This document shows positions 1,823 through 17,149 of a DNA stretch of 23,623 bases, piece by piece. This stretch comes from a virus. The DNA lies in IMG/VR virus record IMGVR_UViG_3300037189_011943, positions 1 to 23,623 of that record; one strand, given 5' to 3'. The position numbers and the translations under genes were made by a program. Each line of letters opens with the position of its first letter. Positions within the stretch are counted from its first letter, which is position 1. Under the pieces are notes generated by a model. The model saw only the letters and a program-made list of their open reading frames with translations. It had not been told where the DNA came from and did no database searches.

Positions 1823-2035
1823 CTATTTGGCAATCTTGCCTTTTTCAACTTTATTCCAAATTCTTTCATGGAAAAAATATAATATACTATTAACTACTAA
1901 AGCAAAACTAACAACGCCGATTCCTACTTTCCAAGAACCACTTGCTAACCACCCACCCACAAAGTTAGTAATTGTAACTAAAATTCTCCATGTTACAACT
2001 TTTCCTAAACTTCTCATAACTTTTTCATAAAACAT
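1823..2035 (-). CDS. DUF2061 small membrane protein
   Basis: A 70-aa protein. The pattern RSLGKVVTWRILVT followed by two hydrophobic segments (around residues 20-35 and 39-54) and a FHERIWNKV tail is the DUF2061 signature. The function of the family is unknown; it is found in bacteria and in marine phages. I chose the ATG at 2035 because GAGG lies six bases upstream; a longer frame up to 2080 has no ribosome site and would abut the divergent ligase start. It probably resides in the inner membrane. Confidence 0.75.
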   Translation of the reverse strand: MFYEKVMRSLGKVVTWRILVTITNFVGGWLASGSWKVGIGVVSFALVVNSILYFFHERIWNKVEKGKIAK

Positions 2036-2044
2036 TTTTAACCT

Positions 2045-2052
2045 CATAAATA
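2045..2052 (+). promoter_or_regulatory. Possible late-type promoter box CATAAATA for the AMP ligase
   Basis: CATAAATA matches seven of eight bases of the T4 late box TATAAATA and ends 29 bp before the ATG of the plus-strand ligase gene. The gene is divergent from its left neighbour and needs its own promoter. An AGGTGA ribosome site follows at 2070-2075. Confidence 0.4.
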
Positions 2053-2081
2053 TTATCAAACAATTATATAGGTGATACATT

Positions 2082-3161
2082 ATGAAACGTGCCGTGGTAT
2101 GTGTTAAAGATCCACATTTAATTATTCCACAACTTGATGACTATAGCATAATGATTGTTAATCCTGACAGCACTCAGGATAGATTAAACTACCTATTAAG
2201 TCAAGCCGATTGGAGTATATTAATTACTGATACAAATATCCAATATAGAAACGGTAACGATTACCCCAATGAAAGAGTTTTATGGTATACTTCGGGCACT
2301 ACAGGTGATAGTAAATTTTATGGATTTACACAAAATCAAATTGACCATTTAGCCAAAACAATTTGTGATAGTTATGACATAACATCAAACGATAGATACA
2401 CAGGTATAATGGGATTGTGGCACGCTCATGGACAAGGATTTTATTGGGCTACAAAATATGCTCAATGTGAAACTAATTTTATTTCAGTTAAAGATATTAA
2501 ATCTTGGCCTAAAAATCAACCAACATTTTTGACAGCAATACCTGATGTATTAAGTACGGCAACATTTTTAAAGTTTGATAACCTTCGTTTTATTCGTAGT
2601 GCTAGTGCTAGTATGCCAGACCGCACCTATATTAAATTAAAAGAAAAATTTAAAGTTCCTGTTATTGAAGCATTTGGAATGACAGAAGCCTTGAGTCATT
2701 GTTTTACTAATCCTTTATATGGTGAACAACGTATGGGAACTGTAGGACTACCTGACGGGATTGAGGCAAAAGTAAATAATGGACATTTACTAATTCGTGG
2801 ACCTAGTGTTTTTACCAATGATTGGTTTGATACAGGAGATTTGGTACAACAAGATGAATTTGGTTATTTTAAAATACTAGGTAGAAGTCGTGACCAGATT
2901 AATATTAAAGGATATAAATTTAATCCTTTAAGTTTAGAACAACAAATATCAAATATATTTCCTGAAATAACTGAGATTGCTATATTTGGTTCTACTTCAA
3001 TAAAATGTTTATATGTTGGAGATATATCAAAAGAAAAATTACAAACATCATTTGAATCTTTTGGTAAAAATTGCCGGCCGGTATTAATTAAACAGGTTGA
3101 TTTAATTCCAAAAAACACTACAGGTAAAATATCAAGAACACTATTAGATTCTATGTTCTAA
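2082..3161 (+). CDS. Short AMP-forming acyl/aryl ligase (ANL superfamily)
   Basis: A 359-aa adenylate-forming enzyme; family members activate a carboxylic acid as acyl-AMP and usually pass it to CoA or a carrier thiol. Motifs in order: P-loop-like YTSGTTGDSK (69-78, with Ser in place of the usual Pro), EAFGMTEA (196-203), DWFDTGDL (247-254), hinge GRSRDQINIKG (267-277) and PKNTTGKISR (343-352) with the catalytic Lys349. The core is intact, but only about 68 residues precede the P-loop instead of the usual 150 or more, so most of the N-terminal subdomain is absent. It is one of only two plus-strand genes. Its 3' end overlaps the end of the convergent SGNH-like gene by 18 bp. Substrate unknown; the neighbouring desaturase and GNAT-like protein would fit a fatty acid or a small carboxylate (inference). 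Confidence 0.85.
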   Translation: MKRAVVCVKDPHLIIPQLDDYSIMIVNPDSTQDRLNYLLSQADWSILITDTNIQYRNGNDYPNERVLWYTSGTTGDSKFYGFTQNQIDHLAKTICDSYDITSNDRYTGIMGLWHAHGQGFYWATKYAQCETNFISVKDIKSWPKNQPTFLTAIPDVLSTATFLKFDNLRFIRSASASMPDRTYIKLKEKFKVPVIEAFGMTEALSHCFTNPLYGEQRMGTVGLPDGIEAKVNNGHLLIRGPSVFTNDWFDTGDLVQQDEFGYFKILGRSRDQINIKGYKFNPLSLEQQISNIFPEITEIAIFGSTSIKCLYVGDISKEKLQTSFESFGKNCRPVLIKQVDLIPKNTTGKISRTLLDSMF

Positions 3162-3866
3162 TAATTCATCTAATCGGGGTTGTACAATTTTTGAAAATGC
3201 ATCATGCCCTCGAAGGCCTGCTCTCCAATTTTTTCTATCAAAAGATTTAAAATTTCTACAAACATTTACAAAATTATTTTTCATATCAACAACAGATTCA
3301 TCAAATAATTGATTTTCTTTTTGATAATTTAAAGCGAGAATGCTTCGTTTTCCAAAATAAAATAAAAATGGAATGTTTAAAGACTTTAAAAATTGTTGTA
3401 GTATATAAACTTTTAAAAGATTGGATTCCGCCATAGTTTTATAATCAATATGATTTAAAAATTTAAACCATTCTGGATGTGGTTCACTATGTAATGTGGC
3501 AGTATTATTAAAAACCCAATTTTTTTCAAATTTTCTATGGTCGACATTTTTAATGCCGGCAATATTACTAGCTCGTTCAGTTTGTTTACTGACATAATCT
3601 GATGTTTTTTCTTTTAGTGGAAAATTTTCTGAATTAGAAATTCTTATATCAGTTTTATATAATTGTGGCCAAACAATTATAACAGCATCATATTTTTGTT
3701 TACTTAAAATATTTACTGTTGTTTCTAAAGTATATGTGTATCCTGCACCACGCAAACTGAAATTGTCAATTTTATATTTTGATTTATCTATTAAATCTGC
3801 CCAACCAAATGATTCACCATGAGTTCCTCCACGATTAAAACAAGAACCATTAACTAGTATATTCAT
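3144..3866 (-). CDS. Divergent SGNH-hydrolase-like protein
   Basis: 240 aa. It has the layout of an SGNH/GDSL esterase: a short beta strand followed by NGSCF (6-10, Ser8 where GDS would be), SLRGAG (37-42) at the Gly block, a VIIVWPQ strand (62-68) where GxND would be, and a C-terminal GHDAFSKIV (220-228, His221) resembling the final His block. Several canonical residues differ, so activity is uncertain. Family members remove acyl groups from sugars or lipids. It overlaps oxygenase A by 17 bp and is probably in the same operon. It could also be a non-enzymatic SGNH-fold protein as seen in tailoring islands. Confidence 0.5.
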   Translation of the reverse strand: MNILVNGSCFNRGGTHGESFGWADLIDKSKYKIDNFSLRGAGYTYTLETTVNILSKQKYDAVIIVWPQLYKTDIRISNSENFPLKEKTSDYVSKQTERASNIAGIKNVDHRKFEKNWVFNNTATLHSEPHPEWFKFLNHIDYKTMAESNLLKVYILQQFLKSLNIPFLFYFGKRSILALNYQKENQLFDESVVDMKNNFVNVCRNFKSFDRKNWRAGLRGHDAFSKIVQPRLDELLEHRI

Positions 3867-4632
3867 TTTTCAAACGAGCTCTAAAAGCAAGTGTGACCCG
3901 CATACATTGAGATACGGTTGATGGAGGTCTTGTATTATGTAATGTTCTTGAATCATAAATCACAATACGACCAGGTACATTAGCCACTATATCACTTGGC
4001 CATCCAACATTAAAACCTCTATTTTGATTATTAGCTTCTCTTTGAAATTGTTGTGTGTCGCCGGAGTTACCTTCAGGATCCTCAGAATAAAAAACAAGTT
4101 CACCTGACCAAGTTGGGTACCATTCTAGATTAGCGCAATATAAAATATTAAATGCACCTTCTTCATTTAAATCTGGATTATCTCTATGTACTCCGTAGGA
4201 TCGGTGCACCCATTCATTTGGTCTGCCATTTACAAAAACAATCCAAGAAGGTAATGAAGGGTCTCCTTCTTTTATTTTCCATTCAGGATAATAATCAGTT
4301 GGTCCCATTCCTTCTGGACATCCATTTAATTCATATTTGTTACCTAATGCTTCATTAATTTTTAACCAAAAGTCATGTATTAATTTATGTTTTTCTATTA
4401 ATTCAGATTCACTTCTTGCCAATGGTGCACGTGGAGTTCCACAACCATACTTATTCGGTTTAATATTTTTTTCACAATAATCCCAACCATCAATATTTGG
4501 TTTAAAAAATACTGTATCTGGAGATTTTTTTTCATGCATAGCTCGCCAAGTTTGATTACCTATGTAATTCCAAATTTTTTCTCGTTCATCCAATGAGATA
4601 ACATTATCAATAATTTCAACGTGTTTTTTCAT
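3850..4632 (-). CDS. Fe(II)/2OG oxygenase A (prolyl-4-hydroxylase-like fold)
   Basis: 260 aa. The iron ligands are His149 and Asp151 (HRD) and His232 (LHNTRPP), with Arg245 thirteen residues later as the likely 2-oxoglutarate anchor. SGELVFY (176-182) is the GGxLxF-like strand found in P4H-type enzymes. Such enzymes hydroxylate proteins, peptides, sugars or lipids using O2 and 2-oxoglutarate. GGAG precedes the ATG. The gene overlaps the PP-loop gene upstream by ATGA, so it is translationally linked to it. This is the largest of the oxygenases here. Substrate unknown. Confidence 0.85.
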   Translation of the reverse strand: MKKHVEIIDNVISLDEREKIWNYIGNQTWRAMHEKKSPDTVFFKPNIDGWDYCEKNIKPNKYGCGTPRAPLARSESELIEKHKLIHDFWLKINEALGNKYELNGCPEGMGPTDYYPEWKIKEGDPSLPSWIVFVNGRPNEWVHRSYGVHRDNPDLNEEGAFNILYCANLEWYPTWSGELVFYSEDPEGNSGDTQQFQREANNQNRGFNVGWPSDIVANVPGRIVIYDSRTLHNTRPPSTVSQCMRVTLAFRARLKNEYTS

Positions 4633-5780
4633 AAATTTTCTCCAAAAGAACCAATGTAATGTAATTTACTTAAGCAAGTCCTTGTTCCATAAATTGTACC
4701 ATCTGTATTATAATGTAAAAAATTAGATATTCTTGGTGTTAAATTTTTTAATCCATCTAACCAAATAGAATGTTCTTTTGTTCCTGACCATCCTTTTGTA
4801 AACCAATAATCTAATTCACAATACCAATCACTTGGTGCTTTTTCAACTTGAAACCAATTATTATCCCAATTTGAATATATAACATTTCTTATTATACCTT
4901 CTTGAGTAGCTCTAATTGTTTTTATATCTTTAGATTCCCATATTTTTTTTGCAACTGAATTAGTTTTAAGATACTTATAAATTGTGTGAGCTTGTTTACA
5001 AAGTAAATCACAACAATCTGGTGACCAATAAAATAATACAGGAGTTATATTTGAATACTCAATTATACTTTCTTTAATCGGTGTAATACTTGAAGCTTTG
5101 TCAGTAAAATACATATAAGTATTTTCATCTTTAACTATAATACGAGGTTTATCAACACCAATAACATAAGCTACACGACCTAGTTTATCAAACTTTTTTC
5201 TAACTTCTGAAAAATATAATAAATTATATTGAAATGCCCCAGTAACATTAAACACATCATTTTTTCCATTAATCCAATTTGCATCAGAGTTATTCAATAG
5301 AGCATTGATAATATTTTTAGAAGAATCTAAAATAGTTATTTTGGTTTTTGGACAATTATTTTTTATATATTCAAGTCTATGTTTTGTGTGTAAATGAAAT
5401 TCTGCATTATTGTTCCATGAATCTTTAACATTTTCATCATATACAAGATATTTTGAACTGGCATCTAAAGCCCATGTTGTTATGATTTCATCAATAATTA
5501 ATCCTTGACGAATAAAACTTTCCAAAATGTTATTGCTATCTGAACCTCCACTATAACTTAAAATAACATAATCATATTGTTCTCGTATTTGTCTTGCTCG
5601 TTGGTCATACAAAGCATCCAAACTTAATGTTGGTTCTATAGACCAATCATATGAATTAAATATTTCATCATTAAAATGCCATTCGATTGGTATTTTTTTT
5701 GGATTAGCATAAAGCATTGCTTGTAATTTTGTTTCAAACACAATACCTTTACAAGTATAATAACCAAGTTCTTTAAACAT
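4629..5780 (-). CDS. PP-loop ATP pyrophosphatase 1 (asparagine-synthase-like)
   Basis: 383 aa. The nucleotide-binding motif SGGSDSNN is at 77-84, preceded by a strand YVILSY and followed by an alpha-beta N-type PP-loop fold. About 70 residues precede the motif, and a long C-terminal part (from about 200) with many aromatic residues probably binds the substrate. PP-loop enzymes adenylate a carbonyl or carboxyl oxygen so that nitrogen or sulphur can replace it, as in asparagine synthase or sugar amidotransferases such as WbpG. No glutaminase domain or Cys zinc site is visible. It is packed between two oxygenase genes (4-bp overlap and 2-bp gap), suggesting a shared pathway. The exact reaction is unknown. 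Confidence 0.75.
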   Translation of the reverse strand: MFKELGYYTCKGIVFETKLQAMLYANPKKIPIEWHFNDEIFNSYDWSIEPTLSLDALYDQRARQIREQYDYVILSYSGGSDSNNILESFIRQGLIIDEIITTWALDASSKYLVYDENVKDSWNNNAEFHLHTKHRLEYIKNNCPKTKITILDSSKNIINALLNNSDANWINGKNDVFNVTGAFQYNLLYFSEVRKKFDKLGRVAYVIGVDKPRIIVKDENTYMYFTDKASSITPIKESIIEYSNITPVLFYWSPDCCDLLCKQAHTIYKYLKTNSVAKKIWESKDIKTIRATQEGIIRNVIYSNWDNNWFQVEKAPSDWYCELDYWFTKGWSGTKEHSIWLDGLKNLTPRISNFLHYNTDGTIYGTRTCLSKLHYIGSFGENL

Positions 5781-5782
5781 AA

Positions 5783-6283
5783 TTAATAAGTTACCGATCC
5801 AACAATATGTAATCGAGGTTCATTTGAACAATTTATAAAAGTGTGTAATTTTCTAGTGTCTGTCCAATATATTTTACCGGCAGATAAATGAGTTAATCCG
5901 GATTCTTTAAAAACAAAATAACATTCGGGATTAGTTATTAAAGGAATATGAATACGAGCTCCCACATCTTTATGTATTGTATAACAAGAAAATGGCATCA
6001 CCCACATTAATCTTGTTCTTCTCATATCATATTCTTTAATTATTTCTTCAAATGGAGTATTTTTAAATAATGGATTAATTAAATTTTCTGACCATGGAGA
6101 TTTAATTATATCTTCAATAATTGCTGAACCAACAGCATCAGAAAAATAGTCGCCACCAATTCTATATTGTATTCCAGCTTGTTTACTTTTAATATCAAAT
6201 TCAGTCCATTTTATTTCTGACTCTAATTTGTAATAACATTCCAACAAACTTGAAATATCTATGTCTCTTAGTTCTTTAATCAT
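5783..6283 (-). CDS. Fe(II)/2OG oxygenase B (Asp/Asn beta-hydroxylase-like)
   Basis: 166 aa. His104-Lys-Asp106 with GARIHIPL (108-115) and RKLHTFINCSNEPRLHIVG (144-162; His147, Arg157, His159) is the double-stranded beta-helix core of the aspartyl/asparaginyl beta-hydroxylase family. Iron ligands and the 2OG-binding Arg are present. The family hydroxylates Asp/Asn side chains in proteins or acts on lipids and free amino acids. The gene overlaps the desaturase by ATGA. It is the closest relative in the window to oxygenase H (12102-12809). Confidence 0.8.
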   Translation of the reverse strand: MIKELRDIDISSLLECYYKLESEIKWTEFDIKSKQAGIQYRIGGDYFSDAVGSAIIEDIIKSPWSENLINPLFKNTPFEEIIKEYDMRRTRLMWVMPFSCYTIHKDVGARIHIPLITNPECYFVFKESGLTHLSAGKIYWTDTRKLHTFINCSNEPRLHIVGSVTY

Positions 6284-7071
6284 TTTAAAAAAGGTAAAAA
6301 TATTCTACAAGGATCAAATTCCCACCATTTACCACTCACACCAGAACCAAAATCATAACTTGCAGGTGAGTGATGATGATTATTATGCCAACCTTGGCCC
6401 CAAGCTACAAATCCCAATACAAGATTATTGTGACTATTATCTTTAGTTTGAAAATTTCTGTAACCAATAATACCTTTTAAATGTCCTAAAACATTTATTG
6501 TATTATCTTGTAATAAACTTATACCCGTAACTAAAAAAAATCCGCAGAATGCTAAACGCCAATCAAACAAACATATAAGCAAAGGTACTGCCCACAAAAT
6601 AGTTAGCTGATGTTTATGAAACCAAACATGATTTGGCTTACGCAACAGGTCAACCGAATATTTAACATTAATAATCATATTGTTTTCTGTAACATGACGA
6701 TACCAACCTATAAATGATTCAAATATACCGTAGACTACAGGACTATGAATATCTTTTGTCGTATCGGCATGAGGATGATGATAACCTCTGTGTAGAGCGG
6801 ACCAAACTATACTAGAACCTTGTCCAGCAAAACTAGCAAAGAACAATATAATGTTTTCTTTGTATGTTGGTAGTTGATGTGTTTTGTGACTAAACACTCT
6901 ATGATACCCTACAGCTACACCTAATCCACACACCAAGCACCACATGATTAAGGTTGAAAATAGATAATAAAGAGGAATGATTCCAACTGTCAACATATAA
7001 AGTGTAGACAAGGCTAAAGGAATAATTGGTAACCAAACGAACCAGATGGCTTTGGAGATATCTTTAAACAT
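6280..7071 (-). CDS. Membrane fatty-acid desaturase (acyl delta-9 type)
   Basis: 263 aa. Membrane di-iron desaturase with box 1 HRVFSH (57-62), box 2 HRGYHH (94-99) plus HAD (101-103), NVLGH (193-197) and box 3 HNNHH (229-233). About four hydrophobic segments (roughly 10-30, 33-50, 76-90, 155-190) flank them. Such enzymes insert a cis double bond in an acyl-CoA or lipid-bound chain, with an electron donor supplied by the host. Box 2 reads HxxxHH instead of the usual HxxHH, an apparent one-residue insertion. It lies between oxygenase B (4-bp overlap) and the GNAT-like gene (TAATG overlap). In a phage it could change host membrane lipids or make an unsaturated acyl group for decoration. Confidence 0.9.
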   Translation of the reverse strand: MFKDISKAIWFVWLPIIPLALSTLYMLTVGIIPLYYLFSTLIMWCLVCGLGVAVGYHRVFSHKTHQLPTYKENIILFFASFAGQGSSIVWSALHRGYHHPHADTTKDIHSPVVYGIFESFIGWYRHVTENNMIINVKYSVDLLRKPNHVWFHKHQLTILWAVPLLICLFDWRLAFCGFFLVTGISLLQDNTINVLGHLKGIIGYRNFQTKDNSHNNLVLGFVAWGQGWHNNHHHSPASYDFGSGVSGKWWEFDPCRIFLPFLK

Positions 7072-7622
7072 TATTTTTCCAGTGCGACAACATATTGTTC
7101 AATCTTATTTACCATTTTTTTACCAATAGGTTTAAATTGTTTATAAATTTCAGGCCAATTGTTATATAATGCTGGAGATTTGTTTTGGCTTGCTCTTTCA
7201 AACCAATGATATATTGCTTTGTTATAATCATTACAAGTTATCCAAACATTTTTATATTGTTGTGTTCGTTCAATCATTATTGGTAATACTTTTTCACCAA
7301 TTATATAGGTTGTTCTATATGGTGGCGAAACTAACATTCTTGTTAATACTAATGCTGTATTCTCGTCATACTCATAACAACCCGCACTAGCTACATAATT
7401 ATCATTTGCATCTGTTATAATAAAATATGCACCTTTTTTATATTGATTTTTTTCAAGTCGATTAAATAAATTAGCAGAGTAACCTTTGTAATTGTATAGA
7501 TAATTTTCGTGTAATTTTGGATTATCCAACATTTCAATCGTGATACCATATTTTAATATATCAATAACCTTATCATTACTCAGGTCATTAATCTCATAAA
7601 TGTTCATTAATTGGTGAGCCAT
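7071..7622 (-). CDS. GNAT-like acetyltransferase-fold protein
   Basis: 183 aa. A GNAT-like order is visible: strand AYFIIT (65-70), a beta turn, SAGCYEY (79-85), LVLTRMLVSPPYR (91-103) where the acetyl-CoA-binding loop starts, a helix (107-119), strand VWITC (126-130) and NDYNKAIYHWFERA (131-144), a typical C-terminal helix. The usual Q/RxxGxG/A loop is weak (residues 102-109), so CoA binding is not certain. The family transfers acyl groups to amines. The ATG at 7622 lies 29 bp inside the upstream PP-loop gene; an alternative ATG at 7607 shortens it by five residues. Confidence 0.6.
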   Translation of the reverse strand: MAHQLMNIYEINDLSNDKVIDILKYGITIEMLDNPKLHENYLYNYKGYSANLFNRLEKNQYKKGAYFIITDANDNYVASAGCYEYDENTALVLTRMLVSPPYRTTYIIGEKVLPIMIERTQQYKNVWITCNDYNKAIYHWFERASQNKSPALYNNWPEIYKQFKPIGKKMVNKIEQYVVALEK

Positions 7623-8481
7623 TTTCTTTCATCATTTCAAAATAATCTTTGAGATATATTCCATCATAAGTTTTTCCAAATTCTTTTAATTCTTTAAATG
7701 AGTCGTGTTTAAATATCTCACTTTGTTCAATAATTTCATAACCAGTATATTTTTGCCTAACTACTAAATTAAAATTGCTATGTCTATTGTAAACATAATG
7801 TTTACTTGATTCTGAACCCAATCTACCTGGAAATTTATTTCTGGCTAAATTCTGTATTCTTTCATCCGATAAAAAAGAAATTGTCATTTCTGGTGTCCAA
7901 CAACCAAAATGTGTTGTACCATAAATTCCTTTTTGTGTGTAATAATTATTTTTTGCATAATCATATTCATATTGGCAATAATACCATCTTTTATCAACCA
8001 ATTTAATATAGGGTTCTATGTCACCATGTATTACTGTACCATCCAATAAACTTGTAGCATAAGCCGTTGCTGATAAATGGTATACTTTTGATTTAATTTC
8101 TTTGGCAATAGATAACATTTGGCCAGACTCAACGAAATTATCAAAATCGATATCTATTATTTTAGGTTTTAATTTTTTTGATTCACAATATTGAAAAGCA
8201 TAATCAATATCATGTTTATTGTATCCAGTATTTAATTGTATAATCACCGGAGTAACATCTAAACCTAAATGTAAAAATACAGCTAAAGTATGTTCACTAT
8301 CAAGACCTCCACTATACAATATGTGAAATTTTCCTTGTTTAAGTGAATAAATTTCTTCAGCTGCTTTACAACTTTCTATAAAATGATTATCAAATTTAGT
8401 TGGTAAAGGATCAATTTCAATATTGAATGTTTTTCCTGTACCAGTTCTTCTAAGATAATTATTTTTAGTTAAAGTTATCAA
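7594..8481 (-). CDS. PP-loop ATP pyrophosphatase 2
   Basis: 295 aa. SGGLDS is at 57-62 after strand FHILY (52-56), followed by a helix and strand VTPVIIQL (76-83), as in N-type ATP pyrophosphatases. It is shorter than PP-loop 1 and lacks the QueC cysteines. The frame starts with TTG overlapping the TGA of oxygenase C; no ATG occurs before the PP-loop, so TTG is probably the true start and translation is coupled. Likely role: ATP-dependent activation of a substrate carbonyl for amidation or similar. Substrate unknown. Confidence 0.72.
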   Translation of the reverse strand: MITLTKNNYLRRTGTGKTFNIEIDPLPTKFDNHFIESCKAAEEIYSLKQGKFHILYSGGLDSEHTLAVFLHLGLDVTPVIIQLNTGYNKHDIDYAFQYCESKKLKPKIIDIDFDNFVESGQMLSIAKEIKSKVYHLSATAYATSLLDGTVIHGDIEPYIKLVDKRWYYCQYEYDYAKNNYYTQKGIYGTTHFGCWTPEMTISFLSDERIQNLARNKFPGRLGSESSKHYVYNRHSNFNLVVRQKYTGYEIIEQSEIFKHDSFKELKEFGKTYDGIYLKDYFEMMKENGSPINEHL

Positions 8482-9086
8482 TTTACAATATAATCACTTA
8501 ATGTAGTTAATGCATCATCAATATCAACTCTCTTATGTGTAGTTTTATCTCTTAAAATCAAACACAAGAGCCATACTGGATCATTACCAACATTTCTTGC
8601 TCTATGAATTACTCCAACATTGGCTAATAGTGGTTGTGTTACATTAATTGTATCAGTTACATCAACATCATCTTTATGATATCTCTTGTGTAGACTGCCA
8701 CAGTTGTTAGGAGAAACTTCAACGTCCACACCAGTTTTTGCATTAGCGTATTGCCATTCGTGTCCTTCTAATCCACCCCAAGAAAAAACAATTTTGGTAT
8801 AATTAGAAACAGGTACCACACCATTTTTATCTATATCAATATGATATCCTATAAAAGAATTTGCCGGAAAGAAAAATATTTCTGCGGCACCACTTTCAAG
8901 ATTATGTTCATCTAACCAATCATAAAGAGCTTGAGTATAAACATCAGGTTTTGAAGAATCTACTCTCCATTGACCAGCTTCGGTTGGATTAAAATTTTCC
9001 ATCGCCGTGAATCTTTGTGTCAATTCAGTTGAATCGTAAAAACCCTCAGGTAAATTTAAAAATCTATATTTGTTATTAACTGCCAT
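8478..9086 (-). CDS. Fe(II)/2OG oxygenase C (cupin-fold, Arg missing)
   Basis: 202 aa. His82-Ile-Asp84 and His161 (GVIHRARNVGNDP) would be the iron ligands in a double-stranded beta-helix fold. At the place where its relative B has NEPR, this protein has NDPV (Val171), so the usual 2-oxoglutarate-binding Arg appears lost; Arg164 or Arg179 might serve. A long insertion (115-145) lies between the metal motifs. AAAGGA precedes the ATG. It is first in a run of five consecutive oxygenase-like genes, each overlapping the next. It could be an atypical oxygenase or a degenerate paralogue. Confidence 0.62.
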   Translation of the reverse strand: MAVNNKYRFLNLPEGFYDSTELTQRFTAMENFNPTEAGQWRVDSSKPDVYTQALYDWLDEHNLESGAAEIFFFPANSFIGYHIDIDKNGVVPVSNYTKIVFSWGGLEGHEWQYANAKTGVDVEVSPNNCGSLHKRYHKDDVDVTDTINVTQPLLANVGVIHRARNVGNDPVWLLCLILRDKTTHKRVDIDDALTTLSDYIVN

Positions 9087-9645
9087 TTAATTTTCCTTTT
9101 ATTGATTGAAAGGTTTCGTAGAACCTTAAAGTTATACTAAGTCTTTTTTTAATACCATCATTTGCCTTAATATCATGAGGTACTTGTGGATTAAAAAGAA
9201 CTGGTCCTGCCGTATCCCACACATCTATAATTTTATTACAATTTTCCCAACTTGTAGAAAAATCGTGTTTACCTCTATCTTCAAATACTGGTGTTGCACC
9301 TTCTTTAGAATAAAACTCAACCCTTGTTCCTGGTGTAAAATTCCAATTTATTCCACAAGGCCTTTTTCTTATTGCATCAACACTTCGCCAATCGCCGTCA
9401 GTATGTGGTAATCTAGGTAAAGCAGATTTTATAGCCCATTTCCATAATATAAAATTTTCTCGAATTTTAATATCTCTATCTTTAAAATAACTTAATAATT
9501 CTGGATTAATAAGCTCTATATCCAACAAGCTATCTAATCTTGGATATCCCCTTACAAGAGGAAAATCCATATCAATTAAAAGTTCTTCAACTGGTTTTAC
9601 CAATGGATAGATATTTATTGGTAATTCAATGTAACATTCATCCAT
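9076..9645 (-). CDS. Fe(II)/2OG oxygenase D
   Basis: 189 aa. His81-Thr-Asp83 (PHTDGDW), distal His157 (QVPHDIK) and Arg168 (KRLSITLRF), eleven residues later, form a complete facial triad and 2OG anchor. The WNFTPGTRVEFY strand (101-112) lies between them. The ATG at 9645 is preferred over a TTG three bases upstream because AAGGA lies eight bases before it. It overlaps oxygenase E by 8 bp and oxygenase C by 11 bp. Substrate unknown; the N-terminal 70 residues carry no recognised domain. Confidence 0.75.
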   Translation of the reverse strand: MDECYIELPINIYPLVKPVEELLIDMDFPLVRGYPRLDSLLDIELINPELLSYFKDRDIKIRENFILWKWAIKSALPRLPHTDGDWRSVDAIRKRPCGINWNFTPGTRVEFYSKEGATPVFEDRGKHDFSTSWENCNKIIDVWDTAGPVLFNPQVPHDIKANDGIKKRLSITLRFYETFQSIKGKLNGS

Positions 9646-10204
9646 CAATATAATCCTTTAATCTATTTTGTAACTCATTGTAATTCAGTCTATAATCTTT
9701 TTCTGTGTCCACTAGACAGGCACTCAAACAGTATCTATCCTCGTATTTATTCCAAACATTATGAAATTCTCCAACGTTCACTAAGTAAAAACCTTCTTTC
9801 ATTGCTGTGCTATATGTTGCAATAACATCTTCAGTTTTGATACCTAAATAGATTGTATTTGCCCAACTTGTTCTCTTTTCTATTTTATCTTCACTTACTG
9901 GTTTATACCAAGTCATTATACTATTTTTACCACCAATAATATAATTTAATTTTGCTTTATTATCCAATTCATGTCCGTCACAATGTATAGTATGGTCTGC
10001 GTTAGGACCCAAATAAAATACTTCGACCCACCTAATACTGAGTCCTACTTTTGATAACAATATGTTGATTTCATCACCCATAATGTTTTGTGGACCCCTG
10101 GTGTGGTTCCTGTAGTTACCTGTACGGTCCTTCTTGTCTACCTTATACTCAGATAAATCTCTTTTAATGAGTGGAAAATTTAAGTAACTACAATAGGGAT
10201 TCAT
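9638..10204 (-). CDS. Fe(II)/2OG oxygenase E
   Basis: 188 aa. His74-Cys-Asp76 (HCDG), distal His148 (GEFHNVWN) and Arg157 (EDRYCLSACLV) make the expected iron and 2OG sites with normal spacing. LNYIIGGKNSIMTWY (86-100) is the strand pair between them. It resembles the phage cupin-like hydroxylases rather than P4H. Overlaps F by ATGA and D by 8 bp, so this is one translationally coupled operon. Substrate unknown. Confidence 0.72.
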   Translation of the reverse strand: MNPYCSYLNFPLIKRDLSEYKVDKKDRTGNYRNHTRGPQNIMGDEINILLSKVGLSIRWVEVFYLGPNADHTIHCDGHELDNKAKLNYIIGGKNSIMTWYKPVSEDKIEKRTSWANTIYLGIKTEDVIATYSTAMKEGFYLVNVGEFHNVWNKYEDRYCLSACLVDTEKDYRLNYNELQNRLKDYIDG

Positions 10205-10722
10205 TTAAAACACTCTATTGCTTGTTCAAAGGTAACACCTTTATTTAAACTCCAACTCAATGTTATTCTCATAGTATCTTTATTATTTGTTACTTCATGT
10301 GGTTTTGAGTTATTAATCAACAATGGCCGGAGTAAGGTATGGCGAAATTTTTCTACCACAGGAGATTTGATTAAATCGTATATTCTTTTAGTGTCGTAAA
10401 CTGTTTGTACCGGTTCAACGGCTTCATAAAATATAGTATTAGTGCCTTCAGTACCTTGAATTGGTATATTAAAAGCACAACTTCGGTCTGTATCAATGTG
10501 TAGCGGTATGCCTATGTTTGCCGGTAAAGGGTATATGTTATATACAGGACTTAATAATGGATATTTTTTTTGAATAGATGACATATAAGCATCATCTGAT
10601 ACCATTCTATGATGTCCAGCTCTACCTTGAACAGTTTCATCTTGCTTTTTTAAAACAAGTTTAGTTATGTAGTCTATGTCTAAATCAATATCTAATTCGT
10701 AGATAAATTCGTTTCTTATCAT
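10201..10722 (-). CDS. Fe(II)/2OG oxygenase F
   Basis: 173 aa. His75-Ile-Asp77 (LHIDTDR), distal His142 (SKPHEVTNN) and Arg152 (MRITLSW) complete the oxygenase site. AFNIPIQG (83-90) and TNTIFYEA (94-101) are the core strands. It is the shortest fully intact member of the five-gene run, little more than the catalytic barrel. Overlaps gene G by ATGA. Substrate unknown. Confidence 0.75.
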   Translation of the reverse strand: MIRNEFIYELDIDLDIDYITKLVLKKQDETVQGRAGHHRMVSDDAYMSSIQKKYPLLSPVYNIYPLPANIGIPLHIDTDRSCAFNIPIQGTEGTNTIFYEAVEPVQTVYDTKRIYDLIKSPVVEKFRHTLLRPLLINNSKPHEVTNNKDTMRITLSWSLNKGVTFEQAIECFK

Positions 10723-11438
10723 TTTCTTTTAGTAAATATACTTATTCCCATTTTAGACACATAACCTAATTTTCTGAAATCACTAGCACAATGCAAACGA
10801 ACACTATCAAATATTATACACGAACCTGGTTTCCAAGGCAAGGCAGATTTAAAACTTAATCCTTTTAACCATTTTCGTTTTAAATGTGTGAAATACTCTT
10901 GGTATAATTTATCATCAATTGCGTCATAATCTAATATACCATCAACTTCACTATATTCATAAATTTGTTTATTATAAAATGTGGGTACTTCAGTATCACC
11001 ATTAAAAAATTTACTAGGACCATGAAAATAGCATTGGTCAAAAAAACACAATTTTGGTAATTCACTACTATTAGAATCACTATCTAACATTAATGGTATT
11101 GTTATACCTTTATACATTGTGTCTGGTAATTGAAACAAGTCATCATTATGTATGATATGTGGGTAATCTGTCCAAAACCAAAAGCCTGCAGTAATATCAA
11201 AATCACCAATCATTATTTTTAATCTGTTAATAATATCCATAACAACATTATCATCCAAATAATTCGTTATGTTTAGTGTAATGGGACCGGTATTTTTATA
11301 TACCTTAGGCTGAACTGGTGTACCATTTTCATATAAATCAATCAAATGGTTAATATCATTTTGTGTTAAAAAATTCTCAACTATATATGGATCCGAGAAG
11401 TTTTTTTTAATGTTATCAATTTGTTCTTTTGTTCTCAT
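10719..11438 (-). CDS. Fe(II)/2OG oxygenase G (P4H/phytanoyl-like, Lys for Arg)
   Basis: 239 aa. The N-terminus DPYIVENFLTQNDINHLIDL (16-35) is the usual start of a prolyl-hydroxylase-like domain. Metal ligands are His97-Asn-Asp99 and His216 (VRLHCASDF). Thirteen residues later Lys229 (KMGISIF) stands in the place of the 2OG Arg; Lys is known to serve this role in some families such as FIH. First gene of the five-oxygenase operon, divergent from the plus-strand QueC-like gene with only about 15 bp between starts. A GATAAATA box lies 6 bp upstream. Confidence 0.75.
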   Translation of the reverse strand: MRTKEQIDNIKKNFSDPYIVENFLTQNDINHLIDLYENGTPVQPKVYKNTGPITLNITNYLDDNVVMDIINRLKIMIGDFDITAGFWFWTDYPHIIHNDDLFQLPDTMYKGITIPLMLDSDSNSSELPKLCFFDQCYFHGPSKFFNGDTEVPTFYNKQIYEYSEVDGILDYDAIDDKLYQEYFTHLKRKWLKGLSFKSALPWKPGSCIIFDSVRLHCASDFRKLGYVSKMGISIFTKRK

Positions 11439-11444
11439 GGCCGT

Positions 11445-11452
11445 ATTTATCT
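11445..11452 (-). promoter_or_regulatory. Possible late-type box GATAAATA ahead of oxygenase operon
   Basis: The minus strand reads GATAAATAC, identical over nine bases to the box ahead of the Gly-rich fibre gene. However it is only 6 bp from the ATG of oxygenase G, so transcription would begin inside the gene unless the mRNA is leaderless. Either it serves downstream genes or it is chance. Confidence 0.3.
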
Positions 11453-11453
11453 T

Positions 11454-12101
11454 ATGAAAAATATATTATCTGATGTTGAAGAAGTATTAGAAAAATACCA
11501 TAAAATTGGTTTGATGGTTTCTGGTGGCTTAGATAGTAGTTTGTTGGCCTATCTGTTATTACATTTTAAATACAAAAATCAAAAAAATAATGAGATTGTA
11601 TTTTTTGTAGTGCCAAGGCCGGACGATTCGGTTGTTCATGTCAATCGTGTGGTAGATTACTTAGATAATCATTTCAATCAACCAAAATCAACTATACATA
11701 TTGTGGGCACAGGTGAATTACATCATAGTAAACAAGTCACCAGCGGCATGAAAGATGCAGTTTTAAACTATGATTGTGATATTTATTTATCATCAACAAC
11801 TACAAATCCTCCAGAATTATTACCTAATTATGAATATGGAAAATTTCGTGAACCAGACGGAACTCCATACAATGGACCTATCAGAAAGAAATCTTGGCAT
11901 CCAAAATTAATTGATATATTTTGGGATTACACAAAAGAAGATACTGTAAAAATAGTTAAAGATATGAACTTAGTTGAAATTATGAATCTCACACATACTT
12001 GCACCGGTTCAAAATTATTGAGATGTGAAAAATGCTGGCAGTGTTGTGAAAGAGCTTGGGCATTTAATAAAAACAACTTTGTAGATACAGGAACAATGTA
12101 A
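11454..12101 (+). CDS. PP-loop ATP pyrophosphatase 3, QueC-like with zinc site
   Basis: 215 aa. SGGLDS at 23-28 starts an N-type PP-loop domain; the C-terminus has Cys183-x7-Cys191-x2-Cys194-x2-Cys197 followed by CERAWAF (198-204), the zinc-binding signature of QueC, which converts 7-carboxy-7-deazaguanine to the nitrile preQ0. Middle residues TSGMKDAVLNYDCDIYLSST (96-115) differ from typical QueC, and no QueD, QueE, FolE or transglycosylase gene is visible in this window, so the substrate may be another carboxylate. Start: ATG at 11454; a longer frame from 11421 would run into the divergent oxygenase start. It ends exactly where the convergent oxygenase H ends, without a terminator. Confidence 0.7.
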   Translation: MKNILSDVEEVLEKYHKIGLMVSGGLDSSLLAYLLLHFKYKNQKNNEIVFFVVPRPDDSVVHVNRVVDYLDNHFNQPKSTIHIVGTGELHHSKQVTSGMKDAVLNYDCDIYLSSTTTNPPELLPNYEYGKFREPDGTPYNGPIRKKSWHPKLIDIFWDYTKEDTVKIVKDMNLVEIMNLTHTCTGSKLLRCEKCWQCCERAWAFNKNNFVDTGTM

Positions 12102-12809
12102 TTAATGTCTGTGTTGAAGATGTGAAATTACTTTTGCAACATTTTTATTTGTAAATGGTATATTCATAATCAAATGTATACTATCATTGACCCAACTAAT
12201 CGTTCTATGTGTTTTTCTTGTATTGATATAATATGCTCTACCCATTTCAATCTGTAGTTTTCTATCTGTATCAATAATCCAATCGTATTGTAATGGTGCA
12301 CAATTATTCAAAAACACAGCAATTCTAAATGTATTTCTTGGTATTGTTGGATGGTCTCGGTGCGGCATAAAAAACCCACCCATATTAGATTTAATCAAAA
12401 ATGTTCTACCTAAAGGAGAATATTCATTTAATAATTCATGTAAACTAGGACAATTATTATATACTTCAGTTGGTACACAAAATTCAGTTTCTTCAACTAA
12501 TCGGCCTGCTTCATAACTTGCTTGTGCTTGACTAGGATTAACTTTGTGGTCTTTACCCGAAAGATTAGTGAGCACCAAACTTTTTCTATTGTTAGGCCAT
12601 TCTTTTCTTGGTAAGTAATCTACCCAATTAGCATGATATCTTGATATCTCATTCATGAATGCATTGGTATCAATTTTAAATTGTAATGGTTCAAAATCAC
12701 CAAGAGTTAATAAAGCCAATTCATTAGCCATATTTTCTTGTGTAACATTATTCACATCAAATTTAGGAGCTCTCTGGCTTATTCCTGGGGGTACTATGAC
12801 ATTTTCCAT
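12102..12809 (-). CDS. Fe(II)/2OG oxygenase H (Asp/Asn beta-hydroxylase-like)
   Basis: 235 aa. MPHRDHP (148-154; His150, Asp152), NTFRIAVFLN (159-168) and RKTHRTISWVNDSIHLI (198-214; His201, His212) match the aspartyl/asparaginyl hydroxylase layout of oxygenase B. The Arg that B has before the second HxI is replaced by Ile211, so 2OG binding must use another residue, perhaps Arg162. The N-terminal 110 residues are not recognised. It ends against the plus-strand QueC-like gene. Last gene of the minus-strand run beginning near 14423. Substrate unknown. Confidence 0.7.
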   Translation of the reverse strand: MENVIVPPGISQRAPKFDVNNVTQENMANELALLTLGDFEPLQFKIDTNAFMNEISRYHANWVDYLPRKEWPNNRKSLVLTNLSGKDHKVNPSQAQASYEAGRLVEETEFCVPTEVYNNCPSLHELLNEYSPLGRTFLIKSNMGGFFMPHRDHPTIPRNTFRIAVFLNNCAPLQYDWIIDTDRKLQIEMGRAYYINTRKTHRTISWVNDSIHLIMNIPFTNKNVAKVISHLQHRH

Positions 12810-12816
12810 AATATTC

Positions 12817-13527
12817 CTACATAAAAATTAATTCATGATTTTTATTTTTTACTTTAGTTTCAAAATAATTTTTTAGAAAATCATAGTCATTGATATTTTT
12901 TTTGATTGAATCCATATCTTGTTCATTTTCTTTATAATATTCATGAGCATCTAAGTAACCTTGATATCCCCATAAACAATTTTTACCTGCTTTATGTGTT
13001 TTCAACAATTCTTTCCATGAGTCATATTTTTGAATATTTCTTGGCAAAGCATCTCTTATGATTATACCACTATAATTTTTTACCATATGTCTGAAACAAT
13101 TTTTCCATGTTGTATACATATCGGCATTATATCGATGCTCAGACATTGTAACTCTAAAGACAGTTCGTTTTTTCGTGGCATTCATACAAAAATCACCTTT
13201 GCTCATATCAGTATTAATTAATCTACCTTTTGGCCAAAGTTTAACAGAACCCATAGAACCAGCTTCACCGTCAATTGGATCCAAAGCATCGAACATAATC
13301 AATTCATCTGAATTATCTTCACCAATATCCAATTCTTTTAACAACCAGTTATCACCATCAACAGTCCAAAATTTATCAGTCGTTGATAAATCATGACACA
13401 TCATATGTGCAACATCAATGCCTTTAACTCCGTTTACTCTTTTTGCTTTAGGATGAAAAGTTAATAATCTTTCCCAATTTTCTTCACAATTTGGTTCATT
13501 ATAACTTATAAAGAAAATATCATACAT
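12817..13527 (-). CDS. Glycosyltransferase-like protein (GT-A fold, DGD motif)
   Basis: 236 aa. YDIFFISYNEPNCEENWERL (2-21) followed by KRVNGVKGIDVAH (29-41) and FWTVDGDN (53-60; Asp57, Asp59) resembles the nucleotide-sugar and metal-binding region of GT-A glycosyltransferases as seen in marine T4-like phages. MGSVKLWPKGRL is further along. It has no membrane segment. A transferase here would fit decoration of glycans or proteins. The family is assigned by pattern only; it could be a GT-fold protein without sugar-transfer activity. Start ATG overlaps the stop of the methyltransferase gene by one base. Confidence 0.6.
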   Translation of the reverse strand: MYDIFFISYNEPNCEENWERLLTFHPKAKRVNGVKGIDVAHMMCHDLSTTDKFWTVDGDNWLLKELDIGEDNSDELIMFDALDPIDGEAGSMGSVKLWPKGRLINTDMSKGDFCMNATKKRTVFRVTMSEHRYNADMYTTWKNCFRHMVKNYSGIIIRDALPRNIQKYDSWKELLKTHKAGKNCLWGYQGYLDAHEYYKENEQDMDSIKKNINDYDFLKNYFETKVKNKNHELIFM

Positions 13528-14162
13528 TATATTTTTTCTCCAATTATCATATATCTAGAAAATATATCATTGTAAATCATTGTACCCATATATTCTACAT
13601 TCATGCAAGGATATTGTTTATGTAATTCTTCAGCAGAATTTACTAAATTTATATGTTCTTCATGCACAAGATTATTTGATTGTAGAAACAATTTAGTTCC
13701 ATTTTTGGCTTTTAAATACCAAGTAACATCAGCTATGTGTTCACAACTTGTGCATACAATAACATCATAGTAACTCAAATCGAGTTCATTGACATCTTTG
13801 CTATAATGGTAAAATTTTGGAAATTTAGAATTTAGAAATTCAGAAATATCTTTGTGTTTTTGTTCAATATCGGTTTCAGTTACATCAATAAATCCCATTT
13901 TTTGAATACAGTAACTTATAAAACCAATCCAAGAGCCAACAACTAAAATTTTAGAATTTCTGTCTAATTTTTCTAAATGTTGGAATAACCAAGCTTTACT
14001 TTGTAATTGTTGTATTCTGAGAGCATCTCGAATTTCAGGCAAAGTATAATTATCAACCACCTTTGGATAATAGAGAGCTTGAATTACTGCAGGTAAATGT
14101 TCTGATATAGATTTATAATCAATTATATCACATTTAAAAATATCATTACTAATTTCACTCAT
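13527..14162 (-). CDS. Class I SAM-dependent methyltransferase
   Basis: 211 aa. ILVVGSWIGFISYCIQ (72-87) is SAM motif I (the GxGxG-like loop reads GSWIG), VTETDIEQK (94-102) carries the acidic residue that binds the ribose, and YDVIVCTSCEHI is the motif IV strand. This fold transfers methyl from S-adenosylmethionine to O, N or C. The first 60 residues form a helical cap. An AGGAGA ribosome site precedes the ATG. In an operon with the glycosyltransferase-like gene and oxygenase H, so methylation of a sugar is a natural guess. Confidence 0.75.
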   Translation of the reverse strand: MSEISNDIFKCDIIDYKSISEHLPAVIQALYYPKVVDNYTLPEIRDALRIQQLQSKAWLFQHLEKLDRNSKILVVGSWIGFISYCIQKMGFIDVTETDIEQKHKDISEFLNSKFPKFYHYSKDVNELDLSYYDVIVCTSCEHIADVTWYLKAKNGTKLFLQSNNLVHEEHINLVNSAEELHKQYPCMNVEYMGTMIYNDIFSRYMIIGEKI

Positions 14163-15196: not shown

Positions 15197-15669
15197 TCAT
15201 GAATGATTTCTGTATTTGCATTAATTCCTGGATGATTTTCAATCATTAATGAAAGATTCAAACTTGGTATACTTACTGGAATTTCAACTGTATTACTTGT
15301 AACAATAGTTGAATTACTTATGTTTGATATCGCATCAGTAATGTTTGAGTCTTGAACTAAAAAATTTATTGAATCAACTTTAATCCATGATGTATTGGCT
15401 TCGTTCCATTCATATCTTACATCACCAAAATCAGAAGGTTTAGGTATTGGAGCTTCCCATTGTTTAGATGAATAATTAAATAACCAAGAGTTATAAGGAG
15501 AAGGAATAATGAATATATTGTTACTACTATCATAGGTATCATTAAGTGAAGCCTCACCTGTAAAGTTTGTTACAGCAATAAACGTGCGTGTATTTGGAAG
15601 GTTTTCCAAACTGTTTGCAATAATCACATTTGTTACAATGTTATTTTCTATTTCTGCAAATTTAAACAT
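15151..15669 (-). CDS. Virion/fibre-associated protein
   Basis: 172 aa. It begins MFKFAEIENNIVTNVIIAN and has WLFNYSSKQWEAPIPKP and YEWNEANTSWI further on, a layout seen in tail fibre assembly or structural proteins of marine myoviruses. The second half (from about 110) is rich in Ser, Asn and Ile and resembles a beta-fibre. The start is the ATG at 15669, overlapping the TAA of the Gly-rich gene by one base; a TTG six bases upstream is less likely. Function inferred from neighbours. Confidence 0.6.
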   Translation of the reverse strand: MFKFAEIENNIVTNVIIANSLENLPNTRTFIAVTNFTGEASLNDTYDSSNNIFIIPSPYNSWLFNYSSKQWEAPIPKPSDFGDVRYEWNEANTSWIKVDSINFLVQDSNITDAISNISNSTIVTSNTVEIPVSIPSLNLSLMIENHPGINANTEIIHENGMIIMTNLTPPSQ

Positions 15670-16475
15670 TACCAATATCCATATATGTAAACAACACCTG
15701 GTTGACCATTTGAATAAGCAGGACCACTCAAAGCGTAGTAATTTCCACCACTATTATCACTTGTATAATGGCCTCCAATTCCTCTATCACCGTAAGTTGT
15801 TGCACCACCCCAACTTAAAGTATTAGCACTACCTGTGCCATCTCCTCCGTGTGTTGGATCATTTCCATAACCATCTGGGGCACCCTGTTGACCACCAGCT
15901 CCACCATAAGTACCGCCGCCAGAAGGTCCATTTTGACCGGATGTTCCGCCAGCTCCTCCGCCTCCACCACCAGCTTTAAGTGAATTAAAACTTGATTGAC
16001 CTCCACCACCACCCGGATAACCGTCAGCAAAAGGATTGTCTTTATAACCGTATCCATAATGACCAGCGCCTCCACCAGCACCAACTTCAACATAATATTC
16101 TGTGTTAGGAGTTACAGTTAATGTTTTAGAAGCGATACCACCATTACCTCCATCACCACCATAACCACCCCAATAATTACTACGCATTCCGCCGCCACCA
16201 CCGCCACCTTCCATATAAACATCTACAGAACCGTTATTCTCTAAAGGAACTGTCCAATTTTGTGAAGTAACAAACGCAGCTAGATTATATACAGTCTTTT
16301 TTGATCCTTGTAATTGACTTAAACTAATTGAACCACTAGTGTTAAGACTAGGCGCATAGTCTGTATTTTTTATATAAGTGCCATTTTTATAATATTCATC
16401 CAAAGAAATGGGGTTACTACCACCAAATTCAGTTTGTATATCAGAAAAAGAGATTTGTCCTGTAGGCAATGTCAT
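15669..16475 (-). CDS. Glycine-rich tail fibre adhesin
   Basis: 268 aa. Residues 1-60 (TGQISFSDIQTEFGG, then ISLSQLQG) form the attachment part shared in style with the gene at 14445. From about 92 to 250 it is a glycine-rich domain with runs of seven Gly and repeats such as GGAGG, separated by strand-forming pieces (TLTVTPNTEYYVEVGAGGG). This is typical of polyglycine-helix adhesins at fibre tips in T4-like phages. A GATAAATA box lies 29 bp upstream; no strong ribosome site is visible. Likely receptor-recognition protein and fast evolving. Confidence 0.75.
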   Translation of the reverse strand: MTLPTGQISFSDIQTEFGGSNPISLDEYYKNGTYIKNTDYAPSLNTSGSISLSQLQGSKKTVYNLAAFVTSQNWTVPLENNGSVDVYMEGGGGGGGMRSNYWGGYGGDGGNGGIASKTLTVTPNTEYYVEVGAGGGAGHYGYGYKDNPFADGYPGGGGGQSSFNSLKAGGGGGGAGGTSGQNGPSGGGTYGGAGGQQGAPDGYGNDPTHGGDGTGSANTLSWGGATTYGDRGIGGHYTSDNSGGNYYALSGPAYSNGQPGVVYIYGYW

Positions 16476-16519: not shown

Positions 16520-17149
16520 TTATCTATTTTCAATTTTATTATACTCAGCTAAACTAAGTGAATTACCTTTATTCCATGCAGGTGGATAGGTGAAACCGAC
16601 CATAGTGTATCTTTCACCTAAATCTACTTTTTCAACAAAATGTGGATGAGTAACACAACCTGGAAAAAATATTGCTGTGCCAACGTCTAAATCAGACGTA
16701 TTAAAATTTTGTCTAGGAAAATTTAATCCACCTCCAACAAAATCATCATTTAATTTAACTACGATTGATACTGTGCTTCTTTCATTATGTAAAGGCATAC
16801 TTGTTTGTGCACCTTGTTCAAATCTGTTTATGAAAGGATAAAAAAATCCTTGTATATTTCTATCCCACAAATATGTGTCATTTATAATTGGAATTATTCT
16901 TTCAGAAAAATGTTTTATATAATTAAGATATAAAATTTCTCCAAACATTTGAAATCCCATACTATAGTTTGGATAGGCATCTCCATAATCTCCAGTATTT
17001 CGAAAATATTCCCTGTAATCTTTACAAAATTTTACAATACATTCACAATATTCTTTTGTAAAAAAAGAAGTTATAATTATATCGTTTTCAACGTGATATT
17101 TTTTTCCAGATTCAGGATGAATACCAGATACATAATCAAATATTTGCAT
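16520..17149 (-). CDS. Prolyl-4-hydroxylase-type 2OG oxygenase I (HxE variant)
   Basis: 209 aa. The core reads His121-Asn-Glu123, then VVKLNDDFVGGGLNFP (130-145), FFPGCVTHPH (161-170) and LGERYTMVGFTYP (177-189), with His170 and Arg180. This is the classic P4H pattern except that Glu replaces Asp in the metal motif; HxE is known from AsnO and clavaminate synthase. Its position beside the fibre genes differs from the other eight oxygenases, so it may act on virion or host proteins. Confidence 0.85.
   Translation of the reverse strand: MQIFDYVSGIHPESGKKYHVENDIIITSFFTKEYCECIVKFCKDYREYFRNTGDYGDAYPNYSMGFQMFGEILYLNYIKHFSERIIPIINDTYLWDRNIQGFFYPFINRFEQGAQTSMPLHNERSTVSIVVKLNDDFVGGGLNFPRQNFNTSDLDVGTAIFFPGCVTHPHFVEKVDLGERYTMVGFTYPPAWNKGNSLSLAEYNKIENR

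Follow-up and report, generated by a model that had tools for sequence, protein, structure and literature searches.

A candidate biosynthetic island of oxygenase, PP-loop and acyl-modifying genes in a T4-like phage

Why does a phage carry eight 2-oxoglutarate (2OG) oxygenase genes side by side with three genes for PP-loop enzymes? The question arises from an island of about 12 kb (positions 2082-14162) in an IMG/VR virus record of 23,623 bases (IMGVR_UViG_3300037189_011943), called the window here in its full length. The island is filled by these genes and by those for an AMP-binding ligase, a desaturase, and GNAT-like, glycosyltransferase (GT)-like, methyltransferase-like and SGNH-like proteins. 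Judged from gene content, the chances are about even that it is a phage-encoded biosynthetic cluster for a dedicated acyl/amino-acid amide pathway; that the product decorates the host or virion surface is a more tentative proposal. Phages with this core appear to run a biosynthetic pathway of their own. The acyl/amide core of PP-loop enzyme, GNAT and desaturase, joined in relatives by a carrier protein, goes beyond the original prediction, a first reading of the letters of this DNA.

The island is no assembly accident, because an independent, near-identical record of 32 kb (G001; 99.985 % identity to the window across 20,462 bases) runs on into T4-type virion and replication genes, with SSB, baseplate hub, tail tube, DNA end protector, head closure and tube-cap genes (PHROGs). 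On this gene content the source is a T4-like phage, as had been claimed. The reality of the island is confirmed by the twin record, by dozens of viral contigs with homologous genes, and by a ratio of nonsynonymous to synonymous substitution (dN/dS) of 0.08-0.21 for island genes with unsaturated dS. The original prediction had raised decay of most oxygenases as an outcome that would speak against it; their metal-binding motifs are intact, as are all open reading frames (ORFs) at the coordinates it named, and the island genes are under selection without decay.

The genes are tightly packed: 13 of the 16 junctions overlap, in line with the near-universal overlap noted before, and the other three measure 0, 2 and 7 bp. 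The AMP-ligase and a QueC-like gene lie on the plus strand and leave two minus-strand runs (3144-11438 and 12102-14162), which rules out a single operon. Shared operon coupling had been taken as a sign of one pathway; the functionally linked set stands, by the linkage across loci given below, while the single operon does not. The genes, together with a ninth oxygenase outside the island, are:

2082-3161, plus strand: short ANL (AMP-binding) acyl/aryl acid ligase; YTSGTTG motif, PF00501 (E=1e-19)
3144-3866, minus strand: putative SGNH/GDSL-like hydrolase; N-terminal NGSCF motif alone
3850-4632, minus strand: 2OG-Fe(II) oxygenase, prolyl-hydroxylase-like; HRD...H...R; PHROG 274 (E=1e-8), PF13640 (E=3e-4, under the cut-off)
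4629-5780, minus strand: PP-loop enzyme PPa; SGGSDS; fold like AsnB, GMPS and carbapenam synthetase (AF2 model, pLDDT 85)
5783-6283, minus strand: Cpz10-like oxygenase of the Asp/Asn beta-hydroxylase (AspH) family; PF05118 (E=4e-5)
6280-7071, minus strand: membrane fatty-acid desaturase; His boxes like those of stearoyl-CoA desaturase (SCD), PF00487 (E=1e-8)
7071-7622, minus strand: GNAT-like N-acyltransferase; PF00583 (E=0.007, weak); adjoins PPb and the desaturase in relatives too
7594-8481, minus strand: PP-loop amide-synthetase-like enzyme PPb; SGGLDS; profile match to NAD synthetase (E=1e-7)
8478-9086, minus strand: small oxygenase of the double-stranded beta-helix (DSBH) fold; HxD and distal His present, 2OG-binding C-terminal Arg not evident
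9076-9648, minus strand: small DSBH oxygenase; HTD...H...R
9638-10204, minus strand: small DSBH oxygenase OG9638; HCD...H...R; AF2 pLDDT 95
10201-10722, minus strand: small DSBH oxygenase; HID...H...R
10719-11438, minus strand: 2OG oxygenase OG10719, core member; HND...H
11421-12101, plus strand: QueC-like PP-loop enzyme; SGGxDS, CxxCxxC zinc site, PF06508 (E=3.5e-6)
12102-12809, minus strand: 2OG oxygenase OG12102, core member, Asp_Arg_Hydrox-like
12817-13527, minus strand: putative GT-A-like protein; DGDNW motif; relatives in 10 other loci
13527-14162, minus strand: class I S-adenosylmethionine methyltransferase-like protein; profile match to 3DTN (E=8e-6)
16520-17149, minus strand: ninth 2OG oxygenase, outside the island and adjoining tail-type genes; HNE...H...R, PHROG 61 (E=1e-18)

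The earlier gene count thus holds: eight oxygenases, all with HxD and a distal His, and three PP-loop genes, each with SGGxDS. Ligase and desaturase are firm in Pfam; the GNAT-like gene is present with the weak Pfam match listed, the methyltransferase and the GT-like gene are recognised by motifs and relatives. The SGNH-like gene had been missed, and no profile matched it.

If these genes serve one pathway, they should stay together in related phages, and they do. Family scans found 36 viral loci with OG10719 and 24 with OG12102; around OG10719 seeds, 28 of 32 loci had OG12102 no more than 3 kb away, and every one of them had it within 10 kb. Seeded scans gave 422 viral relatives of the desaturase and 178 of PPb. 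Among the top 80 loci by similarity for each of these seeds, the non-redundant desaturase-seeded viral loci held a PP-loop gene in 69/70 cases, a GNAT gene in 63/70 and at least one 2OG oxygenase in 58/70, and the non-redundant PPb-seeded loci a desaturase in 51/64, GNAT in 46/64, 2OG oxygenase in 44/64 and a Rieske protein in 22/64. The density per ORF drops with distance from the desaturase, from 0.146 to 0.041 for PP-loop genes, from 0.086 to 0.011 for GNAT and from 0.161 to 0.082 for 2OG oxygenases. An enlarged and rearranged island on a 235-kb phage contig (G002) contains about 20 oxygenases (by reading), three desaturases, at least four PP-loop genes, and ATP-grasp and B12-type radical SAM genes; all eight matches to a single oxygenase profile fall inside 2.5-39.5 kb of its 235.6 kb. 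On two more contigs, all matches to this profile are confined to 32-49 kb of 128 kb and 18-47 kb of 112 kb. The contigs that carry the operon are viruses, since Gp23 was found in 9 of 20 large related contigs tested, including the operon carriers L188 and L120.

A recurrent order links these genes in many loci, L165 (5729-8789) being an example with a complete operon: GNAT, a carrier protein of 71-81 residues, PPb, a GNAT-like protein of about 200 residues, desaturase, small 2OG oxygenase. The carrier protein has a DSL motif and scores above the Pfam cut-off for PF00550. Its profile detected 54 proteins in 48 loci and covered 42 of 134 non-redundant related loci; within 250 bp of the carrier proteins in non-redundant loci, GNAT and PPb were both present in 21/47 cases and a beta-ketoacyl synthase in 8/47. 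The succession of carrier protein and ketoacyl synthase adjoining a PP-loop gene was seen in L119 (9400-10931) and ten other loci and resembles a minimal pair of fatty acid or polyketide synthesis. Another acyl-carrier-like protein (L074, 1638-1856, plus strand) is located within a run of T4-like structural genes, apart from any island.

Pfam by itself backs just two to three of the eight oxygenases, and family alignments back the others. The usual Arg/Lys follows the HxD and distal His in seven of the eight, the exception being 8478-9086. In the family of the small oxygenases the spaced HxD/E-H-R/K motif was found in 254 of 267 members, versus 88 of 267 after shuffling. The family profile had no match in the PDB; for OG9638, the one oxygenase of the eight that was modelled, AF2 predicted a confident DSBH/cupin fold that Foldseek matched to cupin and JmjC proteins. 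The AspH-family member (5783-6283) scored above the PF05118 threshold (23.9 versus 22.6 bits), its family has invariant H104, D106, R110, H147 and R157, and the family profile found 7V4F (Cpz10) as the closest PDB entry (E=2e-35). Cpz10 is the beta-hydroxylase of caprazamycin, a nucleoside antibiotic, and acts on an aminoacyl-nucleoside intermediate (PMC9814697). OG12102 has Cpz10, the lysine halogenase BesD and proline hydroxylases as PDB neighbours, with weak E-values. It may also act independently of the island, since in L074-L076 this core oxygenase occurs alone, near a terminase-like gene. In L022-L026 and others a nitroreductase-family gene adjoins OG12102 at the place of the QueC-like gene, as if swapped.

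Among the PP-loop enzymes, the structural model of PPa matched best the carbapenam synthetase CarA and GMPS in Foldseek (best E=4e-4). As regards the carbapenam/beta-lactam synthetases, PPa had zero sequence matches and a best structural match of TM about 0.3. Relatives of PPa are present in viral contigs; among GTDB genomes, a pattern scan, which distant relatives could escape, yielded 187 pattern stretches and no confirmed relative. The PP-loop profiles also match tRNA thiolases beside NAD synthetase. For the QueC-like protein the nearest PDB entry is Cap9 (E=3e-5); a full role in queuosine synthesis is ruled out by a TIGR00364 score of 22 bits against a cut-off of 150, and pathway partners were absent from the window.

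From the gene content, intact motifs, conserved linkage and viral context observed here we infer each chemical step, the order of steps and the target. The AMP-binding ligase, with oxalate-CoA ligase and malonyl-CoA synthetase as nearest PDB entries and relatives in six other loci, would activate a carboxylic acid. In many relatives, the acyl chain would sit on a carrier protein of their own, in some cases accompanied by a ketoacyl synthase; as the island lacks a carrier protein, the chemistry of the window itself would have to use a host carrier protein, CoA esters or another phage locus. The desaturase would oxidise the acyl chain, GNAT and PP-loop enzymes would couple it to amino acids or amines through amide bonds, and the set of 2OG oxygenases would hydroxylate the amino-acid or acyl portions. 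Methylation, and perhaps transfer of a sugar by the GT-like protein, would be the finishing steps. The product may end up on the surface of the host or of the virion, a freely diffusing small molecule being the next possibility. The surface is favoured because of the host-recognition-type location beside tail-type genes (PMC7029224) and the sugar-nucleotide and GT genes in some relatives.

Several observations weigh against such a pathway. The carrier-protein profile had no match in either the window or its 32-kb twin, hence neither qualifies in itself as a biosynthetic cluster with a phosphopantetheine carrier protein, and no transporter or product-release enzyme was identified for the island. 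Family assignments for GNAT, GT and SGNH are weak, and the Foldseek TM-scores of the PP-loop enzymes are low (0.24-0.35). The desaturase- and PPb-seeded loci were chosen by similarity and not at random, and the distance correlations that speak for linkage (desaturase-PPb, Mantel r=0.48, p=0.001; desaturase-GNAT, r=0.52) may partly come from common phage ancestry. Gene content differs strongly among islands, thus many products or a loose set are possible. On the side of a pathway, other islands carry P450, radical SAM, carbamoyltransferase, Rieske, ATP-grasp, BKACE and short-chain dehydrogenase/reductase (SDR) genes; TauD and sugar-nucleotide genes occur in them as well. A cytochrome P450 gene (PF00067, E=2e-20) lies near PP-loop genes in L019 (8136-9305, minus strand), a LuxR-type regulator near a PP-loop gene in the viral contig L015 (12296-13420, plus strand), and in L072 (2689-10867) O-carbamoyltransferase-, radical SAM/SPASM- and glycosyltransferase-like genes, read from sequence, surround OG12102 and an OG10719-like gene. 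Transporter proteins of the TctC/Bug, DctP and TctA types and BKACE, odd for phages, were found inside the islands of L029, L031, L033, L059 and L019 and could point to betaproteobacteria as hosts.

If the hypervariable region had loosely gathered unrelated auxiliary genes that share no pathway, this would account for the variable content across phages and for TctC, DctP and BKACE, which look metabolically unrelated. It does not account for the fixed gene order and the near-universal co-occurrence obtained from independent seeds; we consider it distinctly unlikely, and the linkage tests disfavour a view of the island genes as random morons. Oxygenases, GNAT and methyltransferase could also act on proteins of the virion (tail fibres) or of the host, by hydroxylation, acylation and methylation, the island being placed beside its substrates. 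Such protein modification agrees with the adjoining tail-type genes, the prolyl-hydroxylase-like genes at 3850 and 16520, the fold of the small oxygenases, nearest to cupin/JmjC protein hydroxylases among others, and collagen-like proteins with GPP/GPKGDKG repeats in 2OG-carrying phages (L013, 12391-13392, minus strand; L015, 16259-16759, plus strand). We hold it improbable: AMP-ligase, SCD-like desaturase, three PP-loop enzymes, carrier protein, ketoacyl synthase and Rieske protein would be left unexplained, and the AspH member is closest to a small-molecule hydroxylase, Cpz10.

Little weight is likewise given to a remodelling of host membrane lipids, by which desaturase, acyl ligase, GNAT and AspH-type hydroxylases would make or modify aminolipids during infection. 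The SCD-like desaturase, ligase, carrier protein and ketoacyl synthase genes suit this explanation, and lipid hydroxylases with an AspH fold exist in LpxO and OlsC, but PP-loop enzymes, QueC-like protein and many oxygenases would have no part in it. An ornithine-lipid pathway was considered; its GNAT acyltransferase family was not matched by any window protein in Pfam. The QueC-like gene and the profile matches to tRNA thiolases and NAD synthetase could indicate a hypermodification of DNA or tRNA by QueC/TilS-like PP-loop enzymes, oxygenases and GNAT. This is very unlikely, with desaturase, AMP-ligase, carrier protein and ketoacyl synthase left over and no QueD/E, dCMP-hydroxymethylase or base-transfer partner in the window, a weak absence in a fragment of 23.6 kb. 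All four explanations are ranked under a surface product and a free small molecule of the acyl/amide pathway.

Around the island, a tail-fibre-assembly PHROG matched weakly at 15669-16475 (E=2e-5). A DUF2061 membrane protein (1823-2080, minus strand) adjoins the AMP-ligase, and a similar one stands among the PP-loop genes of L019 (2413-2889, plus strand). When the full window was compared by megablast with 50,697 phage records, nothing matched, the window being too divergent to align to isolates, and protein searches against isolate phages with PPa, PPb, OG10719, OG9638, the methyltransferase and the GT-like protein gave none either.

That T4-like phages have variable enzyme islands and cyanophages several oxygenases is already known (PMC7029224; PMC3037559). 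The work on pelagimyophages describes a host recognition cluster (HRC), a hypervariable island of T4-like phages that combines tail fibres with radical SAM and other enzymes (Zaragoza-Solas 2020, PMC7029224), reports fabF, SCD and a 2OG oxygenase for the freshwater group PMP-D, and interprets the HRC enzymes as lipopolysaccharide or lipid genes; a PP-loop/GNAT/carrier/desaturase operon is not described in the passages considered. An HRC lies between VrlC and the neck gene gp14, and neither of these boundary genes was identified in the window, a fragment. An analogous island beside annotated tail fibres is present in the cultured Pelagibacter phage Mosig EXVC030M (MT647606), which also has Asp_Arg_Hydrox, desaturase, GNAT, TauD and carbamoyltransferase genes. 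Cyanomyophages share with the window several small 2OG-Fe(II) oxygenases of similar size per phage (Sullivan 2010, PMC3037559), but have at most five per genome, whereas the window has eight in 12 kb, linked to amide and acyl enzymes.

No description of the conserved GNAT/carrier/PP-loop/desaturase/2OG operon was found in the open-access papers searched, and there is a real chance that it represents a viral biosynthetic system of a new class. As a rule, the auxiliary genes of phages are interpreted as single copies boosting host metabolism. A conserved multi-enzyme operon that brings its own carrier protein and recurs across dozens of divergent large phages, with one PP-loop family for which the scanned cellular genomes gave no confirmed relative, would imply that biosynthetic pathways evolve in phages themselves. 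It would also give the 2OG oxygenases, whose abundance in aquatic T4-like phages is unexplained, a meaning that can be tested, and new enzymes for amide formation and oxidation could be drawn from it. We only tentatively extend this to a widespread virus-specific natural-product system of large T4-like phages. Its core of carrier-based amide synthetase, GNAT and desaturase would be combined with exchangeable tailoring genes (oxygenase, Rieske, P450, radical SAM, carbamoyltransferase) and would make, in the course of lytic infection, small molecules or surface groups specific to the phage.

The caprazamycin pathway has the Cpz10 family in common with the window (PMC9814697), but nucleoside-antibiotic core enzymes were not identified in the island. 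Carbapenam/beta-lactam synthetases and the AsnB class share the PP-loop fold and are the best Foldseek matches of PPa, which differs from them by its shorter length, low TM-score and lack of sequence-level membership. Carbapenem pathways also pair a PP-loop synthetase with 2OG oxygenases. Prophage-borne clusters encode peptide bacteriocins in temperate phages. They are a precedent for phages with biosynthesis genes (work cited in PMC9927498). The window differs from them in that its putative chemistry is of the acyl/amide and oxygenase type and is found in large T4-like phages.

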